Assembly (NCBI RefSeq): GCF_014196795.1
Contig: NZ_JACIEJ010000020.1
Coordinates: forward strand, 1 to 34,897
Source of the DNA: Sagittula marina
GTDB lineage: Bacteria; Pseudomonadota; Alphaproteobacteria; Rhodobacterales; Rhodobacteraceae
DNA: 34,897 nt
Reading direction: 5' to 3'
Part shown: positions 12,047 through 27,988 of the stretch, one piece after another
Position numbering within the stretch: position 1 is the first letter of the stretch
Layout: each line of letters begins with the position of its first letter
Position numbers and translations under genes: made by a program
Notes under the pieces: model-generated
What the model was told of the DNA's origin: nothing
Database searches by the model: none
What the model saw: only the letters and a program-made list of their open reading frames with translations

Positions 12047-12082
12047 AACAGCCCGGTGCACGGGCCCCTACACCGGGCTGTT
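12047..12082. terminator. Hairpin between convergent genes
   Basis: A perfect 12-base-pair stem, AACAGCCCGGTG (12047-12058) with CACCGGGCTGTT (12071-12082), closes a 12-base loop. It lies 35 bases after the receptor stop and between convergent genes, so it can serve as a terminator, although only three T residues follow the stem. Its 3' arm overlaps the 5' arm of the parS-like palindrome starting at 12078. Confidence 0.6.
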
Positions 12083-12097
12083 TCGCGCGCGAAACAG
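12078..12097. promoter_or_regulatory. parS: parS-like palindrome, copy 1
   Basis: A perfect 20-base palindrome, CTGTTTCGCGCGCGAAACAG, whose inner 18 bases occur five times in the window. The arms TGTTTC and GAAACA equal those of the bacterial parS consensus (TGTTTCACGTGAAACA), with a 6-base instead of a 4-base centre. It lies between convergent genes and shares five bases with a hairpin. ParB binding is inferred from this similarity and from the parAB genes nearby. Confidence 0.65.
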
Positions 12098-12243
12098 TAA
12101 AAGCGCACTCTCCGTGATCGTTCGCTTCATCCGCTCGACCTGGACCACAGGTGGTTTGACTTGGTCAGGCCACGTGTGTGCTGCCTGAATGCCCTTTAGC
12201 TGCCCTGTCGCGGCCTCAAAGAGATCCGTTCGACCTGAAAGGA

Positions 12244-14253
12244 TCAGGCGACGTCGATCATCTCCGGCGTCAGCGCCTCAATATTCCAGTCATTCAGCAC
12301 GATGCGCACGCCTTGATCCTCAAAGACCACATCATCGCCATCCTGTGTGAAATGCACCAAGGCATCATCTGCCGTTCCGTAACCGAAATTGCCCAGCGAC
12401 AGCTGGTCCCAATTTTCGAAATCGGTGATCTCATGCGCGCCCTCTTCGCCAGCGGAAAAGACAAAGCTGTCAGAGCCAAAGCCGCCTGACATGATGCTGT
12501 TTCCGGCTCCTGGTGTCAGGACATCATCCACCGCCTTCGTGCGCATGAAGGTCTCCAGCGCGGGTGTGGTTTTCAAGGTATACTCCGCCGAGTTGATAAA
12601 ATCGCTCACCACCTCGGCACGGCTGTCCCCTGCAGCCAAGCGACCAGACCAGGCTGCCAGCCCGGAGGCCGCGGGTTCGCGCCCCAGTACATTTCGGAAC
12701 AGCAAGGTCATGAATTCGGTGTCATCGCTATCTCCATAGATACCTTCAAACTCAGGTGTATCCATGAACTGCTCCACGATGTGAGAAAGGTCGCCATCCT
12801 TGGCAATCGCATGAGACCAGGCCTCAAGACCGGAAGCGGCTGGCTCACGCCCCATCACCGCTCCAAACAACCTATAGACCGTGTCCGTCCAGGTGGCCGT
12901 GTCGACCTGCGCTTCAAAGGCGTCCAGCCCCGCTTGCGTGATCCGGATATGCTCGGGCGACTCGGATATGGCCAAGGCCGCTTCCGACCGCGTCATTCCG
13001 TTTTCAATGGCACGGGTCCAGGCCGTCAGCCCGGAATCCGCCGGATCACGGCCCAGCACGTTGCGGAAGAGCTGCGTTACGAATGCCTCATCATCAAGGG
13101 ACCCATAACGCTGTTCGAACTCCGCAGAGCCCGTCAATTGCTCGGACAATTCGTCCAGATTCAGCGTCCCCGTCGCCATTGCGCGGATATAGCCCTGGTG
13201 CCCGTCAGCCCTCGGCTCACGTCCCAGAACCGTGTCGAAAAGTCGATAGACCTGCGCCGATATATCGGTTCCCAGCAGGCCCCGCGCCTCCGCGATCAGC
13301 ACGTTGTCTCCGGCACCGCCGTCCAGCCTGTCCGTACCGCCCTGCCCCCAAATCAAGTCATTGCCTGCGGCTCCGGCCAACAGATCATCGCTACGATCGC
13401 CCACAACAGTACGACCTGCCGGCGCATCCAGCGTGGCGAGGGCCTGCGCGACGTTCACCGCGCCATCATCGAAGTCCAACCACTCGACCCCGTCGAGCAC
13501 CATCTCTCCGGTGCGACCGGCAACAACCAGCTTTCCATCATCGACCCGCATATGCGCATCACTCTCGCGCATGGAGACATCAACCCGGTCATTGCCACTG
13601 CCGCCAGAGATCACCTTATCCCCCGACAGCGTACCAACCTCGATCCGGTCATTCCCGCTGCCTGCATCGACCGTATCGTCACCTGCGCCGGTACTGATCG
13701 TGTCAGAGCCAGCAGCGCCTGCCAGGTAATCGTCGCCCGCACCGCCCGTGACCGCGTTGTCCGTGCCATCCCCCGCCAGATCCAGATCCAGAACGCCGGT
13801 GGTGGTGGCGGCAAAGTTCTGGGTGACGATGACGCTGTTGTAGCTGGTGCCATTGCCGTAGGTCATCGGCCCTTGCACGATGCCGATCCCCAACACGGAG
13901 ACATCCGGATCAAGGATGTTTGCCCGGTGCGAAGGGCTGTTCATCAGGTTTTCGTGCAGCCGGTCCACCTCGTCATAGAGGCTGCCGGCGCCCGTCACGC
14001 TGACCGCCGCGATGTTTTCGGTGGTGCGCCAGCGCCCCTCCAGATCGAAATCCGCAGCAATGATGCGATCCGTATGGCTCGACCCGTCCACGCCGGTATG
14101 ACTGAAGGTGTCGGCATCGCTCATCCACTGGCTATGCGCATCGGCGGAGGTGTTGAGATTCTGTTCCAACATCACAGGGGCCAGCCCATTGGCCGCCCGT
14201 TCCGCATTGATCAACTCCAGCATGTAGCGTTCAAGGTCGCTGGCCACGTCCAT
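12244..14253 (-). CDS. Secreted CAP/SCP-domain protein with RTX and DUF4214 repeats
   Basis: A protein of about 669 residues. Domains in order (numbered from the GTG at 14256): CAP/SCP domain at about 8-150 with the family residues His52 (FSH), Glu80 (ENIA) and SPSHRANIL (107-115); RTX calcium-binding nonapeptides of the GGAGDD/GSGNDR type at about 160-225 and 285-320; DUF4214 units at about 334-385, 388-437, 456-510 and 513-562 (LFRNVLGREPAASGLAAW); and an RTX C-terminal region (575-670), as found in type I secretion substrates. There is no N-terminal signal peptide, so export by a type I system not in this window is expected. The ATG at 14253 is preferred over the adjacent GTG because AGGA lies 6 bases before it. 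The second half is closely paralogous to that of the neighbouring protease. The role is unknown, possibly surface or matrix attachment. Confidence 0.85.
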   Translation of the reverse strand: MDVASDLERYMLELINAERAANGLAPVMLEQNLNTSADAHSQWMSDADTFSHTGVDGSSHTDRIIAADFDLEGRWRTTENIAAVSVTGAGSLYDEVDRLHENLMNSPSHRANILDPDVSVLGIGIVQGPMTYGNGTSYNSVIVTQNFAATTTGVLDLDLAGDGTDNAVTGGAGDDYLAGAAGSDTISTGAGDDTVDAGSGNDRIEVGTLSGDKVISGGSGNDRVDVSMRESDAHMRVDDGKLVVAGRTGEMVLDGVEWLDFDDGAVNVAQALATLDAPAGRTVVGDRSDDLLAGAAGNDLIWGQGGTDRLDGGAGDNVLIAEARGLLGTDISAQVYRLFDTVLGREPRADGHQGYIRAMATGTLNLDELSEQLTGSAEFEQRYGSLDDEAFVTQLFRNVLGRDPADSGLTAWTRAIENGMTRSEAALAISESPEHIRITQAGLDAFEAQVDTATWTDTVYRLFGAVMGREPAASGLEAWSHAIAKDGDLSHIVEQFMDTPEFEGIYGDSDDTEFMTLLFRNVLGREPAASGLAAWSGRLAAGDSRAEVVSDFINSAEYTLKTTPALETFMRTKAVDDVLTPGAGNSIMSGGFGSDSFVFSAGEEGAHEITDFENWDQLSLGNFGYGTADDALVHFTQDGDDVVFEDQGVRIVLNDWNIEALTPEMIDVA

Positions 14254-14419
14254 CACTCTTCCTTTCCCGTTCCCTAGGGGGATCTTGGAAAAGTTGAAGT
14301 GAAATCATGGCGCTATCCGGCCCGAGATGCGCCGTGAAAACGGCCTTCGGATAAATCTTTGCACAAATTGCAAACGGCCCCATCGGAAAGGGGGACATAT
14401 CGCCCGCGTTATCTGCGCG

Positions 14420-17323
14420 CTACGCCGCCAGAGTGGTGAGGGAGATCATCTCTGCGTCGATCATCGCCAGATCCGTGTTGAGGAAGGTGATCGTCATCCC
14501 ATGGTCGGCAAAGATCACGTCGTCACCGTCCTGGCGGAAGTGGTCCAGTGCCTCTTGGGCGGCGTCGTAGCCGAAGCCATCCAGACGGACCCGGTCCCAG
14601 GCCTCCAGGTCGGTGACCACCTGGGACGAGGTGACGAGGGAGGCTGCCAGACTGTGCCCTGTCCCCGGCGCGACGAACTGGAAGGTGTCCGCGAACAGGC
14701 CGCCCGACAGCACGGCGGTCTCCGACATGGCCAGCAGCGTGTCGTCCTCGCCGAACCCTTGCATGAAGATGTCCAAAGACGCCGCCGTGCGCTGCACGAA
14801 CTCCGGCGTGTTCATGAAATCGGCCACCAGCTCTGCACGGCTGTCACCGGCGTCGAGCCGCGCGGTCCAGGCCTCCAGCCCGCTCTGCGCCGGTTGTCGG
14901 CCCAGCACGTTGTTGAACAGCAGGCGCACGAAATCCTCGTTGCTGCTGCCGCCAAAGCGCGCTTGGAACTCGTCGCTTTCCATGAACAGCGCCACCACCT
15001 CGACCTGTTCCATGCCCCGATCCAGCGCGTTGTGCCAGTTGAGGAACCCACCTTGTGCCGGAACCCTGTCAAGCACCGCGCGGTAGAGACGGAACACCAC
15101 CCCTGCCAGCTCCGTCGGGTCGGTGGCGTCAAAGGCTTCCTGCGCCGCCTCGGTGCGGGTGATGTGCTCCGCCGTCTCGGAGAAGCGCGCCACCAGCTCG
15201 GCCCGGCTGGTGCCGTTGTCCAGCTCGGCGGTCCAGACCGCCAGCCCGCGCGGGGCGGGATCGCGGTCAAAGACGTTCTGGAACAGCAGCGTGACGAAGG
15301 CCTCGTTGCTGGTGGAGGCTCCGTAGCGGGCCTCGAACTCCGGCGCGGTGATGAAAGTGGCGGCCAGCTCCTCGAGCGTGACCTGCCCGTTGGCAAGCTG
15401 CGCCGTGTAGCCCTGATGCCCGGTCTCGCCGGGCGCGCGGCCAAAGACCGTATCGAACAGGCGAAACACCTGGTCGGAGGCCTCGAGCCCATAAAGCCCG
15501 CGTCCCTCAGCAACCAGCACGTTTGCGTCGCCCAGCCCGAAAAGGCTGTCCTGCCCGCCGCCACCTGTGACCACGTTTGAGCCGCGTCCGGCCATCAGCG
15601 TGTTGTTCCCCGCCGAGCCGGTCAGTCGGTCGTCACCGTCGCCGGTGGCGGCGTTCTCGATCGCGCCATCGGTGAGCCGGGCCCAGACCGCGCCGCCGAC
15701 GTTCAGCACCCCGTCGATGTCGGCATCGCCCAGGCTGAGGATGACATCCTCCTGCAGGGCCACCGCGTTCAGGGTATCTCTGCCGCCGTTGGTGTCGCTG
15801 AACCGCCCGCGCGCAGTTTCGACCGACTGCAGCGCGCGAAAATCCTCCGTCACGGTCCAGATGTCGTCTGCATGTTCATAAGCGCCGAGGAATTCCAGCC
15901 CGACATCGTAAAGCCTCCCGGTGTCGCCGGAAGAGGTGTCCGTCACCCGCACCGTCCACGCCCCATCGCTGGACATGCCCCGCAAGGATGCCACGCCAAA
16001 GGTCCAGTCGCTCGCGATACCAGCGTCGCCGCCTTCGCGATCGGCGAGATTGATCACCTCGCCATCAGGGGTGATCAGATCGACCACCAGATCGGCGGCA
16101 AACGTGTGCTGAATGTCCACCGTCACATAGACATGTTCGATGACCAGACCCGCATTCACCGTGATGGTCGCATCTGCATGAGCATTGTCTCGGATCACCG
16201 CATTCGGGTAGTCCGAATAACTCATGGATATCAGAGTGTTCTGGGTCGAGGCCACGCCACCCTTGTACAGCCCCCAGACCTCGGCCATGCGCACGGCGGC
16301 AAAGGCATCCACCGCGCCGAAGCCGTAATTCTGGTGGAACGTCATGGCCCCGCCGTTCCAGGTCTCACCGCCCAGGGCCATCCAGCGGTCCAACTCGTGC
16401 CCGTCTGCCCCGGTGCCATAAGCGGACCCTGTCTGTGCGGCGGACAGGGCCAGGATGGTCTGCACATCGCGGTAGCCGAGGTCGGGATTGGCCTCCAGCA
16501 TCAGCGCAATGACGCCCGCCGTCACCGGCGTTGCAGCGGAGGTGCCGCCAAAGTCTTCGGTATAGGCGCCGCTCTCGTAGCCGGCAGAGCCTGTGCGGTC
16601 CGTGGTGTTCGAGGCCGCCGGGGCGGAGATCAGCAGGTTGTGGCCGTAGTTGGAATAATACGCGACGGAGCCGTCTTCTTCGAAGGCACCGACGGTGATG
16701 ACCGTGTGCAGGGTGTTGTGCGCTTCCCCCTGGGCATTGCCGAGAATGCCATAGTCCGCCAGATAGCTGTTGGCTTCATTGCCCGCCGCTTTGATAAGGA
16801 TCGTGCCCAACCCGTCACGCCCATTGGTCGCCGCATACAGAAAGGCCTGCGCCTCGTCATAGGCCCAGGAGCCCCTGTCGCCCGCATCGGAGTCGATGTC
16901 ATAATCCGGGGTGACGCCGTAGCTTTGGTTCACGATGTCAAAGGTCGACGCGTGTTCCAGCACGTCGAGCTGAACGCTCCATGCCGCGCTCTGCACCGTC
17001 CCAAGATAATCGACGGAGGTCAGCTGCGCCCCCCAGGCCACGCCGACACCGCCCACACCGTTGAGCGCCGCAGCGATCAGCCCGCCAACAGAGGTGCCGT
17101 GCCCATCCTCGGACGTGTCATGCAGACCGTTGTCATAAAGACGCCCGTTATAGTGCCTGCTCGCGTCGTAATTGGCCGCCAGATCCACATGGCCCTGGTC
17201 CATGCCGTCATCATAGACCGCAACGGACACCCCTGCGCCGCTGTAATTTTCCCAGATCGCCTCGATGTCGCCGAGAAGGTTGAAATGCCACTGACCGGTG
17301 TATCTTGGGTCTGAAATGTACAT
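14420..17323 (-). CDS. Secreted subtilisin-like (S8) protease with P-domain, RTX and DUF4214 repeats
   Basis: A large serine protease. Numbered from a possible upstream GTG at 17440, the catalytic triad is Asp77 (VAVYDDGMD), His114 (EDGHGTSVGG) and Ser301 (GGTSAATPVTAG), with the oxyanion Asn221 (AAGNEAN). A proprotein-convertase P-like beta domain follows (about 400-520, ITPDGEVINLADREGG; GAWTVRVTDTSSGDTGRLYDV), then a short RTX stretch (about 598-640), four DUF4214-type units (655-705, 712-760, 780-830, 835-885) and a C-terminal RTX-type region. I start it at the ATG at 17323 (MYISDPRYTGQWHF) because AAAGG lies at suitable distance and type I substrates need no signal peptide; the 39 residues before look non-native. 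It probably degrades or processes extracellular proteins. The C-terminal halves of this and the CAP protein are paralogous. Confidence 0.88.
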   Translation of the reverse strand: MYISDPRYTGQWHFNLLGDIEAIWENYSGAGVSVAVYDDGMDQGHVDLAANYDASRHYNGRLYDNGLHDTSEDGHGTSVGGLIAAALNGVGGVGVAWGAQLTSVDYLGTVQSAAWSVQLDVLEHASTFDIVNQSYGVTPDYDIDSDAGDRGSWAYDEAQAFLYAATNGRDGLGTILIKAAGNEANSYLADYGILGNAQGEAHNTLHTVITVGAFEEDGSVAYYSNYGHNLLISAPAASNTTDRTGSAGYESGAYTEDFGGTSAATPVTAGVIALMLEANPDLGYRDVQTILALSAAQTGSAYGTGADGHELDRWMALGGETWNGGAMTFHQNYGFGAVDAFAAVRMAEVWGLYKGGVASTQNTLISMSYSDYPNAVIRDNAHADATITVNAGLVIEHVYVTVDIQHTFAADLVVDLITPDGEVINLADREGGDAGIASDWTFGVASLRGMSSDGAWTVRVTDTSSGDTGRLYDVGLEFLGAYEHADDIWTVTEDFRALQSVETARGRFSDTNGGRDTLNAVALQEDVILSLGDADIDGVLNVGGAVWARLTDGAIENAATGDGDDRLTGSAGNNTLMAGRGSNVVTGGGGQDSLFGLGDANVLVAEGRGLYGLEASDQVFRLFDTVFGRAPGETGHQGYTAQLANGQVTLEELAATFITAPEFEARYGASTSNEAFVTLLFQNVFDRDPAPRGLAVWTAELDNGTSRAELVARFSETAEHITRTEAAQEAFDATDPTELAGVVFRLYRAVLDRVPAQGGFLNWHNALDRGMEQVEVVALFMESDEFQARFGGSSNEDFVRLLFNNVLGRQPAQSGLEAWTARLDAGDSRAELVADFMNTPEFVQRTAASLDIFMQGFGEDDTLLAMSETAVLSGGLFADTFQFVAPGTGHSLAASLVTSSQVVTDLEAWDRVRLDGFGYDAAQEALDHFRQDGDDVIFADHGMTITFLNTDLAMIDAEMISLTTLAA

Positions 17324-17577
17324 GTCTGCTACCTTTAAGAACCGCAGCACGCCAAGGCATCGCGCCGGGGCGGCTGCCCACAGGTTTTCCGGCAAGGAAA
17401 ACATATCGGCTGACACTATTGGCCTGTCGGACTTAACCACACCTTAAGCAGCACCGTGTTTTGATGTCCTGCCTTCTGCAGGGCGTCCGCAGGCAGGGTG
17501 CAAGCGTCCGGAGGTCAGGCGCTTTGCCTTTCTGAGCCCTGCCAGGGGCGGGACCGACTCCTCGGAAAGGCGTGCTG

Positions 17578-18513
17578 ATGACCGATGACCATCTACCTGC
17601 CGTGACCATCCTGATGGCCTGCCATCAGGGCGCCGCCCATCTGGAGGCGCAACTGGCCTCCATTGCGGCGCAGGAAGGGGTGGACTGGCGGCTGGTCGCT
17701 TCTGATGATGGGTCCACGGACGGCACGCGTGCCATTTTGGAACGGTTTCGCGCCGATCACCCCAGTCGCGTCATCCTGCGTCAGGGCCCAAGTCATGGCT
17801 CGCCCTGGGGGGCCGCGGCGCATTTCCTTGATCTGCTGTGTGATCCGACCCTGTCTGACGGCCCGGTGGCGCTGTCCGATCAAGACGATGTCTGGTATCC
17901 TGACAAGCTAAAACAGGCTCTGTTATACCTTGAAACGGCACCTCCCGGTCCGGCCGCCTATAGCGCGCGCAGTCGGCATGTCCGCGCTGACGGCACGCCG
18001 CTGGGCCTGTCCCGCAGCTATCGCGGCGGCCCGTCATGCGGCAATGCGCTGGTGGAAAACCGGCTGTCCGGCCATGCGACGGTGCTGAACGCGCAGGCCG
18101 TGGCGCTGGTCCGCGCCGTCGGCCCCGTGCCTGTCCCCTATCACGATTGGTGGCTGTACCTGCTTATCACCGGCGCGGGCGGCACGGTGATCAACGACCC
18201 TGTGGCGCGGCTGGAGTACCGCCAGCACGGCGACAATGTTCTGGGCGCACCAAGGGGCCTGGCGGCGCGGCTGGCGCGCATGGCCGTGGTGCTGGGCCGT
18301 GACGGGCCGATACTGCAGGCGGCGAACCGGACCGCACTGAGGCAGGCCCACCCGCATCTCAAGCCCGAGGCCCGCGCTCTGCTTCAGGCCATCGATACGG
18401 CGCCACGGTACGGCCCAGCCCGCGCGCGCGCGCTGCGCCGCTTCGGCGTCCAAAGGCACGACTATGTCGCAGATGCGTTCTTGTGGCTGGTGGCTGCGTT
18501 GGGGCGGGTTTGA
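17578..18513 (+). CDS. GT2 family glycosyltransferase
   Basis: About 311 residues. A GT-A fold glycosyltransferase of family 2, with the nucleotide-sugar site VASDDGSTDGT (about 41-51) and the metal-binding stretch ALSDQDDVWYPDK (about 100-112), which resembles rhamnosyl- or galactosyltransferases of the WcaA/RgpB type. A conserved YHDWW motif follows (about 181-185). It should add one sugar to a growing surface polysaccharide on the cytoplasmic side. The ATG at 17578 is chosen over the GTG at 17572 because GGAAAGG (17564-17570) lies 7 bases before the ATG but only 1 base before the GTG. It is convergent with the kpsT-like gene, and a parS-like site sits between them. The sugar specificity cannot be told. 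Confidence 0.85.
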   Translation: MTDDHLPAVTILMACHQGAAHLEAQLASIAAQEGVDWRLVASDDGSTDGTRAILERFRADHPSRVILRQGPSHGSPWGAAAHFLDLLCDPTLSDGPVALSDQDDVWYPDKLKQALLYLETAPPGPAAYSARSRHVRADGTPLGLSRSYRGGPSCGNALVENRLSGHATVLNAQAVALVRAVGPVPVPYHDWWLYLLITGAGGTVINDPVARLEYRQHGDNVLGAPRGLAARLARMAVVLGRDGPILQAANRTALRQAHPHLKPEARALLQAIDTAPRYGPARARALRRFGVQRHDYVADAFLWLVAALGRV

Positions 18514-18561
18514 GCACGGCCTTTGAAGAGCATAACATGAGATTTCAGGCGCAATAGGGTC

Positions 18562-18579
18562 TGTTTCGCGCGCGAAACA
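18562..18579. promoter_or_regulatory. parS: parS-like palindrome, copy 2
   Basis: Perfect 18-base palindrome TGTTTCGCGCGCGAAACA in the gap between the convergent glycosyltransferase and kpsT-like genes. The preceding bases GCAATAGGGTC (18551-18561) closely match those before copy 3. Confidence 0.65.
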
Positions 18580-18585
18580 CGCCCC

Positions 18586-19254
18586 CTACCGACGAGACAG
18601 CCGGTCCATGACATCCCTGTGGTGGTCAATGGCGTCTTCAAGATACTCGTAGTAGTACCCATACCCCTCATCCAGCACGATGCCACAGTCGCACAAAAGC
18701 CGGATCTGCGGGATCGCGTGGCTGCAGACCATGGCCCCGGCATTCCTCAGCCGCGCCTTGAACAGTTTGTCGGAGCGCTCGCGAAACGCCGCATCGCCCA
18801 CCGCCGTGATCTCATCCACCAGATACAGATCGAACTGGATGCCCATGGAAATCCCAAAGGCCAGACGCGACCGCATCCCCGAGGAATAGGTGCGAAACGG
18901 CAGCCGAAAGCTCATACCGAGGTTGGCAAATTCCTCGACAAAGGCGGCCAGCTCGTCCGTGTCCACGCCATAGATGCGCGCGATGAAACGACAGTTCTGA
19001 AGCCCTGTCAGATCCGGGTGGAACGACCCGGCAAAACCCACCGGCCAGGACACGTTGCCGGTGGTGACGACCCGGCCCGACGTGGGCTTTGTCGCGCCGG
19101 AGACCATGCGCAGCAGCGTCGACTTGCCCGCGCCATTGCGCCCCAAAAGCCCCACCGACCGGCCCGTGGGTACGGTCAGCGACAGATCCCGCACCACGGT
19201 TTTGACCTTGCCGTCGGTGACATATTCCTTGGTGAGGTTTTCAAACCGGATCAC
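18586..19254 (-). CDS. kpsT: Polysaccharide export ABC transporter ATP-binding protein (KpsT-like)
   Basis: About 222 residues, the usual length for KpsT/Wzt-type ATPases that energise export of capsule or exopolysaccharide across the inner membrane. Walker A is GRNGAGKST, the signature motif is YSSGMRSRLAFG and Walker B is FDLYLVDEITAVGD. It is followed by AMVCSHAIPQIRLLCDCGIVLDEG, the H-loop region in which this subfamily has a conserved His. The start is GTG at 19254 (VIRFENLTKEY), supported by AGGAGG-type bases (plus-strand CCTCCT 19263-19268) 8 bases upstream. An open frame extends to 19359, but that extension would translate the parS-like palindrome (CFARET) and is not likely to be real. 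It follows the kpsE-like gene and works with the KpsM-like permease at 20864. Confidence 0.9.
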   Translation of the reverse strand: MIRFENLTKEYVTDGKVKTVVRDLSLTVPTGRSVGLLGRNGAGKSTLLRMVSGATKPTSGRVVTTGNVSWPVGFAGSFHPDLTGLQNCRFIARIYGVDTDELAAFVEEFANLGMSFRLPFRTYSSGMRSRLAFGISMGIQFDLYLVDEITAVGDAAFRERSDKLFKARLRNAGAMVCSHAIPQIRLLCDCGIVLDEGYGYYYEYLEDAIDHHRDVMDRLSRR

Positions 19255-19287
19255 GCCAGCACCCTCCTGTTGGGGCAATATAGGGTC

Positions 19288-19305
19288 TGTTTCGCGCGCG
19301 AAACA
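19288..19305. promoter_or_regulatory. parS: parS-like palindrome, copy 3
   Basis: Perfect 18-base palindrome TGTTTCGCGCGCGAAACA in the 56-base gap between the kpsE-like stop and the kpsT-like start. It is preceded by GCAATATAGGGTC (19275-19287), nearly the same flank as copy 2. Confidence 0.65.
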
Positions 19306-19310
19306 TGCCG

Positions 19311-20660
19311 CTACCTCCGGTCCTTCAGCGCATAGATCACCAACACGATCGTCCCCCACACCAGCAAGATCAGCAGCGCCGCAAGTCCCAGCAGCACGCC
19401 ACGTTCCGGGAAACGCGCGCTCTCGGCCAGCGTCGGTTTCACATAGGCGGCGAGGTAGCGGCTTTGACGCCGGGCCTCGGCCTGCGCGGATTCATAAGAC
19501 GCCCGCGCGGCGGTGTAGCTGGCTTCGGCAAATTCCCGATCCACCACCAGCCGTTCGTATTCGCCAAAGAGGTTGGCGTAGACGTCGTCCCCCTCCGCGG
19601 TGCCGCCTGCAAGACCCAGCTTGCGGCGTTCGGCATTGATGCGGTCCTGGATCACGTCGATGCGCCGTTCCGCCTGTGTGATGCGCGGGTCGTCCGACCG
19701 TGTGGACAACCGCAACAGATCGAATTCGATCAGCGCATCGGCGAGCTGCCCTTCGAGCGTGCCCAGAAGCCCGGCCTGGGTTTGCAGATCCACTGACGGG
19801 TCCACCAGCTGGTTGGCATTGCGAAACAGCGTCACCGCCTCGCGCGCGGTCTTGAGCTGGTCCTGCGCGGCCTCGAGATCCTGCCGGGCGTAACCGATGG
19901 CATCCTCGCGGGCGATGGCCGACAGATCGTTGATCATGGCCGACGACTGCCCGAACAGCGTGCTCGAAATCAGCTGCGCATCCTTGGCGGTGAAGGCACG
20001 GGCGCGCACCTCGATCAACCCGGCGCCATCGTCGTAATAGATGTCCACCATGCGGTCCCAATGGGCCACCAGGTCCTCGATCGAGCCTGCGGGATCAAAC
20101 GCGAAATAGGGGTCCTGATCCAGCGGCTTCGACCAGATGGCGCGCAGGTTCACGGCAGCATCCATATCAGAGACCAGCTTTTGGCTTTGCAGGTATTCGA
20201 ACAGGATATCGGTGTCCGAGGAGGACGATCCGGACAGCGACGTGATGCCGCCCAGCAATTCGAGCGCGGAGTTGTTTTCCTCCGTGCGCACGGAAAATGC
20301 CACGGTGGAGGCGTATTGATCGGCCGCCTTGGTCCAGAGATACCAGCCCACCACCAATATCGGCAACACCACCCCCAGAACGAAGCTCGCCAACACACCC
20401 CAATGCCGTTTGCGCAGACGCGCGGAGGAGGCCATTTTCGGCGCTGGCGCGCGGACCTCTCCCTGGTGCGACGGGCCGGGGTTGGGTTTCGGCTTGTGCG
20501 GACCCGGCCCCCCCGGTTGCGCGGCGGGTCCCGGCTTTTGCGGCGCCTGTTGAGGTCGAGCCGCGGCGCCCTGACCGGCGGGCTCTTGGGCCGCGGGTCT
20601 TTGACCCTCAGGTGTCTGGACTGTGGGCTGGCGCGGCGTACCGGGCGGCTGCTGGGTCAC
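19311..20660 (-). CDS. kpsE: Capsule polysaccharide export inner-membrane protein (KpsE-like)
   Basis: 449 residues. An unusual cytoplasmic N-terminus (1-75) is extremely rich in Pro, Gln, Gly and Ala. It is followed by a membrane helix (about 88-109, WGVLASFVLGVVLPILVVGW), a large periplasmic helical region (about 112-420, with long coiled-coil stretches such as RQDLEAAQDQLKTAREAVTLF) and a second membrane helix near the C-terminus (about 421-445). This is the layout of KpsE/BexC/CtrB polysaccharide co-polymerases, which link the ABC exporter to the outer-membrane channel. Most homologues lack so long a Pro-rich tail. Start is a GTG; a GGGGG run lies nearby as a possible ribosome site. It is the first gene of the kpsE-kpsT unit and divergent from the kpsM-like gene. 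Confidence 0.87.
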   Translation of the reverse strand: MTQQPPGTPRQPTVQTPEGQRPAAQEPAGQGAAARPQQAPQKPGPAAQPGGPGPHKPKPNPGPSHQGEVRAPAPKMASSARLRKRHWGVLASFVLGVVLPILVVGWYLWTKAADQYASTVAFSVRTEENNSALELLGGITSLSGSSSSDTDILFEYLQSQKLVSDMDAAVNLRAIWSKPLDQDPYFAFDPAGSIEDLVAHWDRMVDIYYDDGAGLIEVRARAFTAKDAQLISSTLFGQSSAMINDLSAIAREDAIGYARQDLEAAQDQLKTAREAVTLFRNANQLVDPSVDLQTQAGLLGTLEGQLADALIEFDLLRLSTRSDDPRITQAERRIDVIQDRINAERRKLGLAGGTAEGDDVYANLFGEYERLVVDREFAEASYTAARASYESAQAEARRQSRYLAAYVKPTLAESARFPERGVLLGLAALLILLVWGTIVLVIYALKDRR

Positions 20661-20785
20661 GGGAAAACCCCCAAGATGTCAGTTTCTTCGCCATACGGTT
20701 GCATGGCGCTGTGTTCTAGCTAGGAGCATGATGCGCGCGCTGTCCACCCCTGCCGCACCGAAACCCACAAGCCCGGATGGGGGGA

Positions 20786-20816
20786 TGGACAAGCCCCGTA
20801 GGCCCGCGCTTATAGT
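20786..20816 (+). promoter_or_regulatory. Possible promoter of the kpsM-like gene
   Basis: A -10-like TATAGT (20811-20816) and a -35-like TGGACA (20786-20791) with a long 19-base spacer lie in the 203-base gap between divergent kpsE-like and kpsM-like genes. The spacing is not ideal, so this is tentative. The opposite promoter must lie in the same gap. Confidence 0.3.
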
Positions 20817-20863
20817 CGGGCCATCTGTCCCCCGCGGACGTCGCCCCAAAGGGACGCACCACG

Positions 20864-21685
20864 ATGACCGACCTGCCCGCCCCGCAACGTCCACGTCCGC
20901 GGCCCAGCCCCCGGACCTTGCCACGATTTGCCACCCTGCGTGCCATCACGGCGCTGATATTGCGAGAGATGTCCACCACCTATGGACGCTCTCCGGGGGG
21001 CTATCTTTGGGCTGTGCTGGAGCCTGTTGCCGGCATTGCCTTGCTGACGGGAATCTTCTCAATCGGGTTTCGTTCGCCCGCGCTGGGGATCAGCTTTGCC
21101 ATGTTCTATGCCACCGGGATGCTGCCCTATCTCATGTTTGCCGACATCGCGGGCAAGCTGGCACAGACACTGAATTACTCGCGCCAACTGCTGATCTATC
21201 CGCGCGTGACCTTTGTCGATGCGCTGGTGGCACGGTTTGTCCTGAACATGATGACACAGTTGTTGGTGAATTATATCGTGCTGGGGGGCATCCTGTTGCT
21301 GTTTGAAACCCGCGTGGTCATGGATGGGCTGACCATCCTCAAGGCCTACGGGCTGGCGGGCCTGCTGGCGCTGGGGATCGGCACGTGGAACAGCTACATG
21401 ACCGTGCGATTTCCGGTCTACCAGCGGATCTGGTCCATCGCCATGCGTCCGCTGTTCTTGCTGTCCTGCATCTTCTTCATCTTTGACACGATCCCCCAGC
21501 CCTACAGCGATTATGTCTGGTTCAACCCGCTGGTGCATATCGTCGGCCTGATGCGGCGCGGGTTCTACCCGAATTATGACGCGCCGTATGTCTCGGAGCC
21601 CTACGTCCTGGTTGTGGCGCTGGTCTCCATGGTGCTTGGGCTGATGCTGCTGCGCCGGGATCACAAGATGCTGCTGGAGATGTAA
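20864..21685 (+). CDS. kpsM: Polysaccharide export ABC transporter permease (KpsM-like)
   Basis: 273 residues with six predicted membrane helices after a Pro/Arg-rich cytoplasmic start. The family hallmarks are the amphipathic REMSTTYGRSPGGYLWAVLEP (about 34-54) and the C-terminal FNPLVHIVGLMRRGFYPNY. It belongs to the ABC-2 permease family (KpsM/Wzm) and with the KpsT-like ATPase should form the inner-membrane channel for finished polysaccharide. AAAGGG lies about 10 bases before the ATG. It is unusual that it is on the opposite strand from its ATPase partner, so the transporter is expressed from a divergent pair. It ends just before a parS-like site and is convergent with the large glycosyltransferase. 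Confidence 0.9.
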   Translation: MTDLPAPQRPRPRPSPRTLPRFATLRAITALILREMSTTYGRSPGGYLWAVLEPVAGIALLTGIFSIGFRSPALGISFAMFYATGMLPYLMFADIAGKLAQTLNYSRQLLIYPRVTFVDALVARFVLNMMTQLLVNYIVLGGILLLFETRVVMDGLTILKAYGLAGLLALGIGTWNSYMTVRFPVYQRIWSIAMRPLFLLSCIFFIFDTIPQPYSDYVWFNPLVHIVGLMRRGFYPNYDAPYVSEPYVLVVALVSMVLGLMLLRRDHKMLLEM

Positions 21686-21693
21686 GGCGCCTT

Positions 21694-21711
21694 TGTTTCG
21701 CGCGCGAAACA
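21694..21711. promoter_or_regulatory. parS: parS-like palindrome, copy 4
   Basis: Perfect 18-base palindrome TGTTTCGCGCGCGAAACA between the convergent kpsM-like gene and the large glycosyltransferase. On the minus strand it is preceded by TATAGAGTC, like the TATAGGGTC before copy 3, so the flank is shared but inverted. Confidence 0.65.
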
Positions 21712-21742
21712 GACTCTATACATGCCGGTCGTCCCGGGCGGA

Positions 21743-23911
21743 TCACGTCTGATCCTGGCTCAGGGAAATGGCACGGGCCAGCAGCCCCCCCGGATCACCG
21801 GCCAGATCCAGCGGCACAGGATGACCGTTCGGGGCGGCACGGGCTGCCTCGCCCTGGCCGCCAAGGTCAAAGACCATGACAGGCAGCCCGGTGGCCAGCG
21901 CCTCGTGCGTGGTAAAGGAAAACGTCTCCGGCCAGAGCGACGGGATCAGCCAGCAAGTCACGCCGTAGCGCGCGGCCAGCCGGGGCAGGTCGCCCACGTC
22001 GTAGCGTCCATGATGCCGGGCGGGGGCATGCAGCCGGTGAGCGGGGTCGATCCCGCCCAGAAGGACAAGCGAACAGTCTCTGTTCCGCCCGGTCTCGCGG
22101 CTGAGCGCCTCTGCCAAGGCAGCGCCTTTGTGTGGGGCAAGACTGCCGAGGATGCCCAGCACGCAAGGGGCCTCTGGCGCGGGGCGGGGCAGGGGTGGGA
22201 CCGCGACCGGCAGGGCGTGTGGGCGCAGGTCCGAGGGCGTGCCGGGGTAGGCGGCCTCGGTCAGATTTTGGCTGGCGCGGCTGAAATGCTCCACCCGATC
22301 CGCGGCGTACAGCAACCTCCCCCAAGTCGCCCGCCAGACCGACAGCGGCACAGGCGCACCGTCAGGGCGGCGGGTTTCATGCCGAGGAGAGGTGCTTGCC
22401 GGGTCCGGCAGACCACGCCAGTGCTCGCCGTCCTCCAACAGGGTCGGGTTTGGAGAGAGCGGGAAATAGTCGTGCATCAGCACCGTCAGCCTGTCGCTGG
22501 GTTGGCGTAAAGACAGCAGCAGGTCCGGCAGGGTGATCGGATCCGGATCGCCCACACCACAGGAATAGACCAGAGCGCGCTGCGTCACAGGGGCCAGAAG
22601 GCGGGTGACATGGTCCCACTCGGCCGTGCCCGCAGCCGTCATCCCGTGGCCGCCGTCAGGCCGCCGGGTCCACAGCTCCAGCGTGAAGCGGAACATGCCC
22701 CCCACGCGGATCACCAGCGCGTGGCCGACGCGTTCCAGATCCGCGTGCAGACGGCGCTGCAGATCCGTCTCTGCCCCGCCGCCCATGGAATGCGCGAGGG
22801 TGATCGGCAAGGGCGCGTCGCGCGTGACCTCAGCCCGCGCCAGCCCAAGCGCCAGACGTGCCGTCACAAGCGGATCGCGCCGCAAGAAGCCGTGCACCTC
22901 CGCATCAAAGCGCGGATAGCGCCGCGTGAGGATCGCTGAATTGCGCTGGATCAGAGCCTGCTTTTGCGCAGAGCCAAAGCTTTGCCCCCCGACATGCGCC
23001 ACGTAGAGGTTGGGCACATAGACATGGGTGCACCCTGACGCGCGGGTCTTTTGGCACCAGTCCACTTCCTCGCCGTACCCGGGAGAAAAAGCCTCGTCAA
23101 ACCGCGGTATGGCCTCCAGCGCCTCGCGTGAAAGCGCCATGCAAAATCCGACGCCGGCCACTGCCGGGACCCACGCAACGCCATTTGTTTCGCGCGCGAA
23201 ACAGTCGATCTGTGCAGCCTCCTCGGCGGTGATCGGACTGGCGCGCCCCGGTTCCGGGATCGACCCAAGCTCCGCATCGTTAGACATGGGCGTGACAGAG
23301 GCCACGCGCGCATCCTCCAGCAACGGGCGCAGTAGACGGCGCGCCCAGCCGTCCGGGACCAAGGCATCAGAGTTCAGCAAGACGACGGGATCGGGGTGGG
23401 CCATGGCCTCCGCCAGACCACGGTTGACCGACCCGACGAAGCCGAGGTTTTGCGCATTTTCCAGCAGTATCGCAGGATGCTGCGCGGCCCAATCCCTCAG
23501 GAAGGGCAGGGTGACGTCATCGGGGGAGGCATCGTCGATCAGAATGATCCGCCACGGGATATCCGTGTGTCGGACCACATGGTCCAGTGCCTGCCGCAGC
23601 AAGGGCAGGCCGCCGTACACCGGCATGACAATCGTTACAGCTTGCGGATCAGGGCCAGCCGAAGGGGGCTCGAACAAGCGCGCATCCAAGGCCAGGGGCG
23701 CCGGGCCCGAGAGGTCGAGCAACTGCTTTACCCGCGCCCGCGCCGCCGGATCGCGCATCCGCGCCCACCGTATGGCATGGGGAAAGGCGCGCGCCCCGGC
23801 CCGGACAAAGGGCGGGATCAACAGCAGGCGATCGCGGCGCGGATGGGCGCTGTCTTCGGGCAGGTGATAGGCGGCATAGATCCCGAACAGCCGCCGGATG
23901 CGGTGCAGCAC
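21743..23911 (-). CDS. Two-domain GT2-GT4 glycosyltransferase
   Basis: 722 residues joining two glycosyltransferases. The N-terminal GT2 domain (about 91-330) has IVMPVYGG, LIDDASPDD (124-132), LLNSDALVPDGW (178-189) and a GYGEEVDWCQKTRASG acceptor-site region typical of rhamnosyltransferase-like enzymes. The C-terminal GT-B domain (about 380-722) of family 4 has the E-x7-E motif (Glu662 and Glu670 in PETFSFTTHEAL) followed by GLPVMVFDLGGQGEAA. It likely transfers two sugars to a surface glycan. Codons 237-242 (CFARET), in an insertion of the GT2 domain, are spelled by a perfect parS-like palindrome. It is convergent with the kpsM-like gene and lies downstream of parB on the same strand. Donor and acceptor sugars are unknown. 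Confidence 0.85.
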   Translation of the reverse strand: MLHRIRRLFGIYAAYHLPEDSAHPRRDRLLLIPPFVRAGARAFPHAIRWARMRDPAARARVKQLLDLSGPAPLALDARLFEPPSAGPDPQAVTIVMPVYGGLPLLRQALDHVVRHTDIPWRIILIDDASPDDVTLPFLRDWAAQHPAILLENAQNLGFVGSVNRGLAEAMAHPDPVVLLNSDALVPDGWARRLLRPLLEDARVASVTPMSNDAELGSIPEPGRASPITAEEAAQIDCFARETNGVAWVPAVAGVGFCMALSREALEAIPRFDEAFSPGYGEEVDWCQKTRASGCTHVYVPNLYVAHVGGQSFGSAQKQALIQRNSAILTRRYPRFDAEVHGFLRRDPLVTARLALGLARAEVTRDAPLPITLAHSMGGGAETDLQRRLHADLERVGHALVIRVGGMFRFTLELWTRRPDGGHGMTAAGTAEWDHVTRLLAPVTQRALVYSCGVGDPDPITLPDLLLSLRQPSDRLTVLMHDYFPLSPNPTLLEDGEHWRGLPDPASTSPRHETRRPDGAPVPLSVWRATWGRLLYAADRVEHFSRASQNLTEAAYPGTPSDLRPHALPVAVPPLPRPAPEAPCVLGILGSLAPHKGAALAEALSRETGRNRDCSLVLLGGIDPAHRLHAPARHHGRYDVGDLPRLAARYGVTCWLIPSLWPETFSFTTHEALATGLPVMVFDLGGQGEAARAAPNGHPVPLDLAGDPGGLLARAISLSQDQT
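23186..23203. promoter_or_regulatory. parS: parS-like palindrome, copy 5, inside a glycosyltransferase gene
   Basis: The same perfect 18-base palindrome, TGTTTCGCGCGCGAAACA, here within the coding sequence of the two-domain glycosyltransferase and read as Cys-Phe-Ala-Arg-Glu-Thr. It is the copy nearest to parB, about 0.8 kb away. Preservation of every base inside a coding region argues for selection on the DNA site. Confidence 0.65.
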
Positions 23912-23983: not shown

Positions 23984-24985
23984 TCAGCCTTGCCGCTTCT
24001 GCAGCCAGGCTTCGAGATCGGCAAGGAAGGCGGCATCCACACCGCGCCCTTCAAGCAGCACCTGATGCGCCCCCTGCTTGCGCAGGTGGACAGGGGCATT
24101 GGGCTTCGGCGCGGGTGTCTCGGCTTTGGCCTTGGCGGGTTTTGGTGGGGTCAGTTCCGCCCGGATCAGGGTCTGTTCCGCCTCAAAGTCCGCCGGGTCT
24201 CCCTCTGCCACCTGAGTGCGCAGACGGGCTGACAGCTCTGGGTCCGCTTCCAGCGCCTGCGCCAATTGCAGGCCCAGACGCTCGCCAATGGCGCGGGGAA
24301 AGCGCAAGGCCCCGTCGAGATGCTGCACCACGAGGGTGAAGCTCTTGATCTTTGACCGCTTGGCGCGGGAGGCATTTTCGTAAAGCCCCGACAGTGCGCT
24401 GGAAAGGTCCTCAAACGCGCCCTGCTCCACAGCCTTCAAGGCGATGCGCGCGCGCTCGAAATAGCTCAGCCCCACGCGGATCTCGTTTTCCTCGATCATG
24501 GCGAGGTAGGCCTGGCTGGCCTCTGCCGGGCGGCGCAACAGCCCCAAGACCTCTCCAAAGGCGGCGCTGTCACGACGCCGCAGCTCTGTCAGCGCCATGA
24601 CCCGTCGCCAGCCGGAAATCAGGCCGTAGCGCGGCGCAGCCCCCTCACCAAGGTCCACAAGCTCCACCGGCGTCTGCTGGCCGCGGCGGGCGATGCTGTC
24701 CACCAGGGCGGCTTGCTCCTCTTCAGGAACGCCGACACGATCACGCACGAGATAATCGAGCGCGATGTCCTCCAATGGCACGGACACCACCATGCGCCCG
24801 CCCTCCCGCGCGCTGCGCAGGGTCTCGGCCATCTCCGTGATGGCGGCGGTCGACGATGCCTCACGCGCCACGTCTGCAATAGGGGCACGCATTGTGGCGC
24901 CTACAGGAGGCAGTGCGGATTTGACCTCTGGCGCGGGGTCCATGAAGCTCGGGTTGGCAGGTGTCAGGCGTCTGCGTTTGGCCAT
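23984..24985 (-). CDS. parB: ParB-family plasmid partition protein
   Basis: 333 residues. The N-terminal ParB/Srx-like region contains VVSVPLEDIALD (about 66-77), the nucleotide-binding box as SGWRRVMAL (124-132, where many family members have GxRR) and the ENEIR motif (166-170) before a helix-turn-helix DNA-binding region (about 172-260). A Lys/Pro linker (about 278-300) leads to a short C-terminal segment that probably dimerises. ParB binds parS sites and spreads along DNA to form the partition complex moved by ParA. GAGGAG lies just before the ATG. It follows parA by 147 bases on the same strand. The palindromes at 12-23 kb are the likely targets. Confidence 0.87.
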   Translation of the reverse strand: MAKRRRLTPANPSFMDPAPEVKSALPPVGATMRAPIADVAREASSTAAITEMAETLRSAREGGRMVVSVPLEDIALDYLVRDRVGVPEEEQAALVDSIARRGQQTPVELVDLGEGAAPRYGLISGWRRVMALTELRRRDSAAFGEVLGLLRRPAEASQAYLAMIEENEIRVGLSYFERARIALKAVEQGAFEDLSSALSGLYENASRAKRSKIKSFTLVVQHLDGALRFPRAIGERLGLQLAQALEADPELSARLRTQVAEGDPADFEAEQTLIRAELTPPKPAKAKAETPAPKPNAPVHLRKQGAHQVLLEGRGVDAAFLADLEAWLQKRQG

Positions 24986-25132: not shown

Positions 25133-26533
25133 TCATTCGGCAGCGCGCTGGTTGGCCAGCTCGTCACGCCGCCAGGCGCCTATGATCAGGCTTTTGACGG
25201 CGGCCCATGTGGCATCGAACGTTTCACGGCCACGGGCATAGGTTTCGCGATTGAAGTCGCGATAGTCGGCCTCGTAGATGCCTTGCACCTGCTCGCCGGC
25301 TTGTCCAATCAGCGCTGTGAAGCCCTGACGGTGGGGGGAGAGCGTGGGGCCGAGGTAGCTTTGCATCAGGGCGGCCAGTTCTGCCTGCTGGCTACTGTCA
25401 TAGCGGGTGATGAGGGCGCGCACCGCGTCCCATTCAAACGCCAGCCCTTCACGGCCCAAGGCGCGTGCCGCGATGTTTTCCGCCTCCTCGATGGAGCCGA
25501 AGGTGGCATGCAACATGTCAAAGAAGCGGCCCGTGCTGTCGAACTCCAGGAACGACGCGCCGAGGGGGACCAGCAGGATGTCCGCGGCCGCCAGTCCGTT
25601 GATCGTCAGGTAACCAAGCGCGGGGGGCGTATCGAGGAAGATCAGGTCGTATTCGTCGAGGATGCCGTCCTCGTCGAGGCTTTCGGTCAGCGCGTCCCAC
25701 AGCCGCCAGCCGCGCGCGTTCATGCGCCAGACCGGGATCTGGAATTCCGCCCAGTAGAGGTTCAGCTGCGCGCCGATCAGGTCGATGTTGGGCCAGTGGG
25801 TTTTCTGGATCAATTCGGGGGCCTTCACCTGCAGGGCCGATGACAGGGTGTCGTCCAGAGGTTGCGGGACCTCGCCACGGGCTGCACGCGCCTGGTTGTC
25901 CGATTGCAGCGTGCGGGCGTAGTGACGGGCCAGCAGCGGAAAGACCGTCTGCCATTCGTCCTGGACCTGGCCGCCGAATATCGAGGTCATGGAGCCCTGG
26001 CTGTCCAGATCGATCACCAGCACCTTGTAGCCGTCGAGCGCGGCGGACATGGCGAGATGTGCGGCGGTGGAGGTCTTGCCCACGCCGCCCTTGAAGTTGG
26101 CCACGGCCAGCATCTTGGCGGGCAGACCGTCGGGGCGGTAGGGGCGGTAGTCCTTGGCCTTCGATCCCTTGGCCCCGAAATGGGCGCGCAGTTGCAGCAC
26201 CTCGTCGAGGGTAAACCATTTCGCGCCGCCCGAGGTTTCGGACATGCCCTGTGGCAGATCGGGGTTTTCCTTGAGCACGCGGCGGAAGTGACCGGTGGCC
26301 ACGGGGATCAGGTAGCGGGTGATTTCCCAGGTGGAAAACAGGCGCAGGGAGCGGTTGCCGTTTTCCTCCAGCCCGCGGCTTTCGAGATCCTGTCTGCCGG
26401 AGGCACAGGCCTGCGCGATGCGCGCGAAGTCCGCCGTGCCCATGGCGCATTCAAGCTGGGTGGCCGCGATATCCGGGTCGAGCCCCACGTAGGGAGGCTG
26501 GGTGGTTTTGGTGGATTTTGTCGGGCTTTTCAT
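25133..26533 (-). CDS. parA: ParA-family plasmid partition ATPase
   Basis: 466 residues. An N-terminal extension (1-135) includes a MerR-like helix-turn-helix region (about 100-118, GGAKWFTLDEVLQLRAHFG), as in ParA/RepA proteins that also regulate their own operon. The deviant Walker A KGGVGKTS (148-155), the A' motif VIDLDSQGS (173-181) and Walker B LIFLDTPP (297-304) define the ATPase domain. It should drive segregation of the replicon by dynamic binding to the nucleoid and stimulation by ParB. It is transcribed divergently from repA across the origin. The ribosome site before the ATG is weak. No third gene of repABC type follows parB, so this is not a repABC cassette. Confidence 0.9.
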   Translation of the reverse strand: MKSPTKSTKTTQPPYVGLDPDIAATQLECAMGTADFARIAQACASGRQDLESRGLEENGNRSLRLFSTWEITRYLIPVATGHFRRVLKENPDLPQGMSETSGGAKWFTLDEVLQLRAHFGAKGSKAKDYRPYRPDGLPAKMLAVANFKGGVGKTSTAAHLAMSAALDGYKVLVIDLDSQGSMTSIFGGQVQDEWQTVFPLLARHYARTLQSDNQARAARGEVPQPLDDTLSSALQVKAPELIQKTHWPNIDLIGAQLNLYWAEFQIPVWRMNARGWRLWDALTESLDEDGILDEYDLIFLDTPPALGYLTINGLAAADILLVPLGASFLEFDSTGRFFDMLHATFGSIEEAENIAARALGREGLAFEWDAVRALITRYDSSQQAELAALMQSYLGPTLSPHRQGFTALIGQAGEQVQGIYEADYRDFNRETYARGRETFDATWAAVKSLIIGAWRRDELANQRAAE

Positions 26534-26980: not shown

Positions 26981-27988
26981 ATGACCAGCGCAGCAGGGGG
27001 GCTGACCCCTGACCGGCATCCCACGGCGGACTTCTTTGTCTGCGATTTGTTCGACGCCTCGCCCAAGGGCGATCTGGCGTCCATGGAACATCCGATCTTT
27101 TCCCTGGCGACGAAGCCCGACACGCGGGTGCTGTCCTATGAGCACAATGGCGCGGAGATCACCGTCACGCCCTCGGTCAAGGGGCGCGCCACGATCCACG
27201 ACAAGGACATCCTGATCTATTGCGTGAGCCAGCTGATGGCGGCGGTGAACCTGGGCCGCCAGATCACCCGGCACCTGACGCTGACGGCGCATGACCTGCT
27301 GGTGGCCACCAACCGCGACACCAGCGGCGATGCCTACACCCGTCTTCGGGATGCGTTTGAACGGCTCGCCGGCACGCGCATCACAACCAATATCTCGACG
27401 GGGGGCGAGGAGACCACGCGCGGCTTCGGCCTGATCGAAGCCTGGGAAATCGTGCGCAAGTCGCGGGGCGGGCGAATGGTGTCGGTGCGGGTAACGCTGT
27501 CGGACTGGCTGTTCCGGGCCGTCGAGGCGCGCTCGGTGCTGACGCTGTCGCGTGATTATTTTCGCCTGCGCAAACCGCTCGAGCGCCGCGTCTACGAGCT
27601 GGCGCGCAAGCATTGTGGGCGGCAGCAGGCCTGGCGGATTTCGGTCCCGGTGCTGCACAAGAAGGCGGGCAGCGCCGCGCCCGTGCGGGTGTTCCGCGCC
27701 GCCCTGCGCAAGATGATCGCGGAGGGCAACCTGCCGGATTATGAGTTGACCGAAGAGCTTGGCGACGTGATCCGTGTCAGCCGCCGCAATGGCGTGGTGG
27801 AGGCCGGTCCCGACCTGCCGCCCCTGTCCGATGCGGTGCGGGCGGCAGCCCGGGAATTGGCGCCGGGCGAGGATGTCTACGCCCTGGAGGCACAGTGGCG
27901 GCATTGGTGGGCGGCCTCCGGGCGCAGCCCGCTCAAGGCGCCGGGCAAGGCCTTTCTTGGATGGATCAAAAGCCGCCCCCGGGGGTGA
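26981..27988 (+). CDS. repA: RepA-type replication initiator (RPA family)
   Basis: 335 residues. It matches the RPA initiator family of alphaproteobacterial plasmids through the N-terminal run LTPDRHPTADFFVCDLFDAS, MEHPIFSLATKPDTR followed by YEHNG, and DKDILIYCVSQLMAAVN, then a winged-helix DNA-binding region (about 90-190, SGDAYTRLRDAFERLAGTRI; RPLERRVYELARKH-like). The C-terminus (about 280-335) carries the conserved Trp-rich segment QWRHWWAASGR. It should bind the adjacent iterons and open the origin. The ribosome site is weak, but the sequence before MEHP is conserved in the family, supporting the listed ATG. In roseobacters this type defines RepA plasmids, distinct from RepABC and DnaA-like ones. 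Confidence 0.92.
   Translation: MTSAAGGLTPDRHPTADFFVCDLFDASPKGDLASMEHPIFSLATKPDTRVLSYEHNGAEITVTPSVKGRATIHDKDILIYCVSQLMAAVNLGRQITRHLTLTAHDLLVATNRDTSGDAYTRLRDAFERLAGTRITTNISTGGEETTRGFGLIEAWEIVRKSRGGRMVSVRVTLSDWLFRAVEARSVLTLSRDYFRLRKPLERRVYELARKHCGRQQAWRISVPVLHKKAGSAAPVRVFRAALRKMIAEGNLPDYELTEELGDVIRVSRRNGVVEAGPDLPPLSDAVRAAARELAPGEDVYALEAQWRHWWAASGRSPLKAPGKAFLGWIKSRPRG

Follow-up and report, generated by a model that had tools for sequence, protein, structure and literature searches.

The stretch of Sagittula marina DNA analysed here, a complete contig (C20) of 34,897 bases referred to below as the window, raises the question of what reads a perfect palindrome that recurs five times among genes for polysaccharide export and exoproteins on a replicon that also encodes parA and parB. 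The five copies are very probably the centromere (parS) of the plasmid's own ParABS partition system. The initial annotation had called them the probable centromere of the parAB operon, a proposal to which comparative linkage of the site to the ParB family now lends strong support. Direct support covers the sites, their number, their linkage to the ParB family, the recurrence of their positions in relatives and the predicted fold of the protein.

The palindrome and its linkage to parB

The 18-mer TGTTTCGCGCGCGAAACA is present in five exact copies in the window, and no other match was found there at up to three mismatches, which confirms the positions first described. The copies are as follows.

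Palindrome 1: 12079..12096 (palindromic over 12078-12097 through an extra C-G pair), in the gap between convergent gene ends at 12012 (+) and 12244 (-)
Palindrome 2: 18562..18579, between the convergent ends of glycosyltransferase and ABC ATPase genes
Palindrome 3: 19288..19305, in the tandem gap that separates the end of a KpsE-like gene from the ABC ATPase gene start
Palindrome 4: 21694..21711, between the convergent ends of ABC permease and large glycosyltransferase genes
Palindrome 5: 23186..23203, inside the gene of the large glycosyltransferase, encoding CFARET in frame (residue 237)

Three copies are therefore in convergent gaps (12079, 18562, 21694), one is in a tandem gap (19288) and one is intragenic (23186), and they lie 0.8, 2.3, 4.7, 5.4 and 11.9 kb past the parB stop codon, all on one side of parB. 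Palindrome 3 would fall within the first codons of the ATPase gene if a far-upstream GTG start were used; judged by the size of the relatives, translation probably begins nearer 19250. Abutting palindrome 1 is a GC-rich inverted repeat (agcccggtg...caccgggct, 12050-12079), which may act as a transcription terminator where the convergent genes end. The hexamer GAAACA at about 25126, in the parA-parB gap, looks like a decayed half-site and is too short to support a claim.

Searching the whole host genome (5,042,646 bases, 45 contigs), as had been proposed, returned exactly five copies of TGTTTCGCGCGCGAAACA, all on the window contig, and a reversed-sequence control gave no matches. Base composition predicts approximately 7e-5 copies per 5.04 Mb, and in 100 dinucleotide shuffles of the window, with three mismatches allowed, there was a mean of 0.03 matches and a maximum of one, never five. 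The inner class TTTCGCNNGCGAAA occupies the same five window positions and no others, and the flanks of the five sites differ from one another, except that three sites are accompanied by a short stretch resembling (A)TAGGGTC. The parS-like arms with a six-base centre that were noted at the outset are indeed identical to the arms of the canonical parS core GTTTCACGTGAAAC, which is present in the same genome in three copies within 7 kb on contig C1.

The palindrome is linked to parB across relatives. In 25 plasmid records picked by ParB similarity among 60 listed of 620 ParB matches, TTTCGYRYRCGAAA was found within 600 bp of parB in 24, so that the suggested comparison with related RepA-type plasmids favours the centromere reading. 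All of the first nine records (L035, L036, L045-L051) carry it within 600 bp of, or inside, parB, as do 15 of the further sixteen near parB, the match in Thioclava being a near-palindrome; in the lone miss, Thalassococcus S3 (G302:C3), the only exact copy is 3.7 kb from parB. Sites are typically located in the parA-parB gap or no more than 150 bp past the end of parB. Variant sites, with GCATGC or GCACGC centres and altered outer pairs, accompany some of the ParBs, for example those of R. litoralis and R. denitrificans. Among six genome loci likewise picked by ParB similarity, five (G088, G250, G047, G067, G086) carry GTTTCG-N4-CGAAAC beside parB, one of them imperfect, and the sixth, G262, has no parB-adjacent site. 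In all, 53 loci were read, 50 with a site near parB, and because many had been fetched for holding the palindrome, only the 25 plasmid records and these six genome loci count as unbiased. The site family is TTTCGC-RY-GCGAAA, usually with TG and CA outside.

The association extends to the bacterial family. In 394 family genomes, a ParB match (E<=1e-20, a cut-off that may admit other ParB clades) and TGTTTCGCNNGCGAAACA occurred together in 82, the motif alone in 11, ParB alone in 103 and neither in 198 (Fisher p = 5e-21); in other words, ParB was found in 82 of the 93 genomes with the motif vs 103 of the 301 that lack it. The exact 18-mer gave corresponding counts of 61, 9, 124 and 200.

No Pfam family matched the window ParB, and the RepB/ParB models of NCBIfam matched it below their cut-offs; identification as ParB consequently rests on these sub-cut-off matches together with fold and synteny. 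An AlphaFold2 (AF2) model built from a 45-sequence alignment (pLDDT 85.8, pTM 0.63) has a mixed N-terminal domain, a helical middle and a terminal strand-strand-helix. Foldseek matched it to Noc, Myxococcus xanthus ParB, Caulobacter crescentus ParB and KorB (E approximately 1e-7 to 1e-5), and the top match was a Noc-DNA complex. The stretches GWRR and ENEIR..LS..ERARI are invariant in 13 ParBs and resemble the canonical boxes for binding cytidine triphosphate (CTP).

The replicon and the scattering of its sites

The genes that bear on the argument are listed here.

26981..27988, + strand: repA, replication initiator protein A of a RepA-type replicon (PF10134, 2.7e-98)
25133..26533, - strand: parA, ParA/RepA-type partition ATPase of 466 aa (AAA_31 at 7.5e-30, above cut-off; partition RepA/ParA models below cut-off)
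23984..24985, - strand: parB, ParB/Noc/KorB-fold protein of 333 aa, putative binder of the palindrome (fold and below-cut-off models)
21743..23911, - strand: two-domain glycosyltransferase, bearing palindrome 5
20864..21685, + strand: exporter ABC-2 permease (profile match)
19311..20660, - strand: BexC/CtrB/KpsE-like polysaccharide export protein (match below model cut-off)
18586..19359 (longest open reading frame), - strand: polysaccharide exporter ABC ATPase (profile match)
17572..18513, + strand: family-2 glycosyltransferase
12244..17440, - strand: two DUF4214/RTX exoproteins, one with a CAP domain (12244-14256) and one an S8 protease (14420-17440)

Other cargo in the window includes PqiA/PqiB-type genes, a sulfotransferase and a sugar epimerase-like gene. 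The PF10134 initiator is divergent from the parAB operon, and the same repA/parAB arrangement is annotated in eight relatives (L035, L036, L045-L049, L051). Rhodobacterales plasmids of this RepA type (PF10134) are named 'RepA-I' in a published account. No overlap of 18-200 bases was found between the contig ends, and the plasmid may therefore be incomplete. A second ParB relative, with 41% identity, is encoded on host contig C19 (31248-32027; L038), possibly by a compatible replicon; no perfect palindrome of at least 12 bp was found beside it in the 3.8 kb read.

The initial annotation regarded an array dispersed through cargo genes as unusual. The absence of a parB-adjacent copy is indeed the rarer condition, but relatives too have distant copies, some of them at corresponding gene ends, and the unusual trait here is thus the missing parB-adjacent site and not scatter itself. 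Most of the relatives read have one or two sites flanking parB, and in several of these there are additional sites kilobases off; among nine plasmids of which 32 kb or more was read, five carry one or more copies at a distance of over 3 kb from parB. The nearest relative, G262, belongs to the same genus and encodes a ParB 76% identical to that of the window. Its RepA contig carries six copies of the inner 16-mer GTTTCGCGCGCGAAAC at 2.7-11.3 kb from parB and none at parB, five of them in the region of exporter, glycosyltransferase and exoprotein genes and the sixth on the repA side at a distance of 10 kb. Like the window with its palindrome 2, G262 and Antarctobacter (two sites each), Mameliella sp. 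CS4, Sulfitobacter S190, Roseovarius THAF8 and Sagittula stellata have a site where the ABC-ATPase gene ends. The gene facing that end comes from a single glycosyltransferase family in the window, G262, Mameliella, Sulfitobacter and Sagittula. Where the permease gene ends, there is likewise a site in the window (palindrome 4), in Mameliella and in Antarctobacter, and a degenerate one in Sagittula. One Mameliella record (L178) had been fetched because it bears the palindrome; the other genomes in this comparison were not so chosen. Because sites recur at the same gene ends in relatives, the dispersed array is an inherited feature. At the intragenic site (23186), four homologues have RFAQNL, RHAATL, KHAAGL and QEAARI in place of CFARET, with no gap across the six positions, suggesting that this copy arose by substitution in a tolerant stretch.

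Binding, CTP-dependent sliding, a partition function and the reason for the spacing are inferred. Solved ParB proteins load at parS, close as CTP clamps and slide; by analogy, dimers of ParB (23984-24985) would load at each TGTTTCGC-GC-GCGAAACA, close as clamps and slide along neighbouring DNA, and one large ParB-DNA complex would be offered to the ParA ATPase, which would separate plasmid copies at division. With the parB-adjacent site absent in both the window and G262, only distal sites are left (five over approximately 11 kb in the window, six in G262), and spreading of ParB from several sites over 11 kb might either build one large partition complex or serve as insurance against site loss. 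Convergent gene ends are where binding should least disturb promoters, and the location of three sites in convergent gaps suggests selection against such disturbance. Deletion of cargo in this host would also remove centromere sites, although the idea, raised at the outset, that cargo retention is tied to partition is speculation.

The locus would provide an example of a centromere moved off its operon into cargo genes. It would also give a likely partition site to a widespread class of Rhodobacterales plasmids, which in the records read often carry polysaccharide and exoprotein genes, together with a prediction rule, namely TTTCGC-RY-GCGAAA by parB.

The same signal away from the plasmid

The palindrome is replicon-specific in the host genome and parB-linked across relatives; elsewhere it is not confined to plasmids. 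An unexpected observation was the presence of dispersed off-plasmid copies in some relatives, approximately 5-16 per genome in some other Rhodobacterales studied in depth. The scan of genome contigs returned at least 118 stretches, 80 of them listed by title, so that the taxonomic range is incomplete, and in draft genomes 'chromosomal' denotes a position away from the RepA-type parB, some of the contigs being shorter than 100 kb. Marivita hallyeonensis (G371) has 17 copies and a metagenome-assembled genome (G133) has 18, in each case with two on the parB contig. Dinoroseobacter shibae (G035) has 15, of which 14 are on the 3.79-Mb chromosome; Leisingera aquimarina (G394) has 12 on a 4.25-Mb contig (one with an off-pattern centre) and three on a second contig; and Pacificitalea (G149) and G075 each have ten off the plasmid and two on the parB contig. 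Nearly all listed centres are GCGCGC, GCATGC or GCGTGC/GCACGC. Many chromosomal copies, or copies on replicons lacking such a ParB, had been held to count against a centromere: neither is found in the host genome, but both exist in some other genomes.

Using a home-made gene finder, which in its check missed some annotated genes, 135 dispersed loci were read and 121 classed by their two neighbours, giving 59 convergent, 10 divergent and 52 tandem gaps, and eight of the 135 copies lie inside a predicted gene. Convergent gaps account for 59 of the 121 site loci vs five of 86 other gaps of the same loci (p = 4e-12). Moreover, 40 pairs of loci from different sources share homologous genes on both sides at less than 96% identity, and some positions are therefore old; two of the pairs involve window site 18562, one involves a viral-database contig and several are from one group. 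One such pair joins G238, which has a distant ParB relative only, with G293, which has a close one. No Rfam structured RNA was matched at the gathering threshold around dispersed copies at 17 loci.

Three side observations concern these loci. A CtrA-like TTAA-N7-TTAA box lies within 80 bp of dispersed copies, in perfect form, in 17 of 97 of a first set (background 0.008 per kb; examples include L012, L068, L085, L119, L122, L132 and L136) and in only two of 41 of a second set, three D. shibae loci being common to both, so that the association is uneven. G303 (L317-L323) has seven dispersed copies, all with a GCATGC centre, and a weak best ParB match (9.8e-25). The only viral-database contig with the 18-mer (IMGVR_UViG_2832320676_000001, L266) is possibly a misfiled plasmid; by eye, it has mannose-1-phosphate guanylyltransferase- and sugar epimerase-like genes, as on these plasmids.

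Plasmid sites and dispersed copies of the same genome tend to agree. In 15 genomes, tabulated by hand and not corrected for the tree, mean agreement between the centre bases of the plasmid and those of other contigs was 0.86 vs 0.60 shuffled (p = 0.0007). The exception was G293, where the plasmid's centre is not the commonest elsewhere, and the match in D. shibae is by plurality only (7/14 GCATGC). In D. shibae, the 14 chromosomal copies (L063-L065, L306-L316) sit in an element of approximately 85 bp, all of them about 235 kb or more from the chromosomal parS pair, and the site beside parB on pDSHI02 (L280:9471) lies in seemingly the same element. Profiles of 30 bases per flank from 14 genomes, two of them uninformative (G340 and G015), showed that the D. 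shibae plasmid site and both sites of G092 and of G371 fit their own genome best. The plasmid sites of G075 and L. aquimarina are of a shared GGTC type and rank their own genome third to fourth, and there is no clear own-genome fit for G149, G133, G340 or G015. The five window sites score below zero on all 14 profiles.

These observations raise the tentative and on balance doubtful possibility that the plasmid centromere belongs to a signal shared between plasmids and chromosomes in the Rhodobacterales: dispersed TGTTTCGC-RY-GCGAAACA sites, about half of them convergent, co-evolving with resident RepA-plasmid parS in several lineages. If true, ParB or a host factor would physically couple plasmid and chromosome, the plasmid either segregating along the host chromosome or helping to organise it. 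The window's host would then have lost, or never had, the chromosomal set, and would represent the autonomous, plasmid-only end of the range. The presence of this signal on chromosomes, with centre bases that match, allows a direct test for segregation machinery common to chromosomes and low-copy plasmids, and D. shibae, a culturable model strain, has both the plasmid and the chromosomal signals.

Several findings weigh against assignment of the palindrome to ParB. Whole-model TM-scores of the structural matches are low (0.2-0.28), in part owing to a different arrangement of domains and to truncated chains. TGTTTCGCNNGCGAAACA is missing from 103 of the 185 genomes with a ParB match; in the four of these whose parB regions were read (G262, G088, G250, G047), variant sites were present on the parB contig in every case. 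Conversely, a ParB relative at E<=1e-20 is lacking in 11 of the 93 genomes with TGTTTCGCNNGCGAAACA and in nine of those with the exact 18-mer. Even at E<=1, four of the nine (G106, G108, G359, G320) yield no relative and the remaining five yield distant ones only (best 1.5e-6), and no convincing alternative ParB-like reader was found in the nine genomes at E<=1. Because dispersed copies exist also in genomes without a ParB relative, something besides the window-type ParB may read the 18-mer. The motif thus appears not to be used by window-type ParB alone, which does not undo its linkage to parB.

Rival readings and known systems

The strongest rival proposes that the palindrome is read by a host chromosomal DNA-binding protein, instead of or in addition to the plasmid ParB, and that the plasmid has borrowed a chromosomal element. 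Dispersed copies in genomes without a close ParB relative agree with this. So do the site centres, which co-vary between the plasmid and the remaining contigs, and the flanks, which do the same in D. shibae, G092 and G371. Nevertheless, we regard it as unlikely, since the host genome has no copy outside the window, the window sites fit none of the flank profiles, nearly all RepA plasmids read show the linkage to parB, and the candidate protein is hypothetical.

It is very unlikely that the sites are chiefly operators from which a ParB-family protein or other factor represses the polysaccharide and exoprotein genes. RK2 KorB is a ParB-family protein with dispersed palindromic plasmid operators of different sequence, and its ability to repress is established. 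The window resembles the RK2 system in having dispersed palindromes on a plasmid, here among functionally related genes, and a ParB model that matches KorB structures. Unlike in RK2, however, no palindrome here occupies a divergent promoter gap, and the site accompanies parB in nearly all of the plasmid records despite differing neighbouring cargo.

A parS of a RepABC-type system, bound by RepB, is highly improbable. The RepB models do match ParB below cut-off, and the repABC form proposed in the initial annotation holds in its loose version, GTTN4GCN4AAC. The tight published consensus GTTNNCNGCNGNNAAC (PMC9040568) is not matched, GTTTCGCGCGCGAAAC having G and C where C and G are required. In addition, the motif tracks the window-type ParB family beside PF10134 initiators, and RepABC membership is rejected on account of the RepA/PF10134 initiator and the unmatched consensus. 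Chance recurrence or duplication of a segment, in favour of which the CG-rich alternating core might be cited, has a negligible probability and is ruled out by the copy expectation, the host-genome count and the differing flanks.

No mention of TTTCGCGCGCGAAA, TTTCGCATGCGAAA, TTTCGCACGCGAAA or TTTCGCGTGCGAAA was found in the literature searched, which consisted mostly of papers available without subscription, and a prior description is possible. Chromosomal parS is the 16-bp TGTTTCACGTGAAACA, the core of which is absent from the window. The window system resembles chromosomal ParABS in the TGTTTC/GAAACA arms and the ParB fold, and differs from it in that its ParB is of a different clade, its sites are plasmid-borne and spread over 11 kb, and its half-sites are offset by 2 bp because the centre is of six bases and not four.

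A precedent for distant sites is the repABC plasmid pAMI4 of Paracoccus aminophilus. According to PMC9040568, its distal 3parS locus holds three functional parS 11.5-12 kb from the operon, is bound by partition protein B and is needed for partition, and a few distant putative parS copies occur in other repABC replicons. On that account, the window shares with pAMI4 a 16-bp palindrome, GTT...AAC ends and extra sites far from the operon. Unlike pAMI4, it has a RepA/PF10134 replicon, no site beside parB, and single sites between or within cargo genes with no long non-coding locus. Finally, the window ParB differs from Noc in being encoded beside parA and repA and in having plasmid-confined sites, and is like Noc in its closest structural match and in the dispersal of its sites, as on the chromosomes of some relatives.

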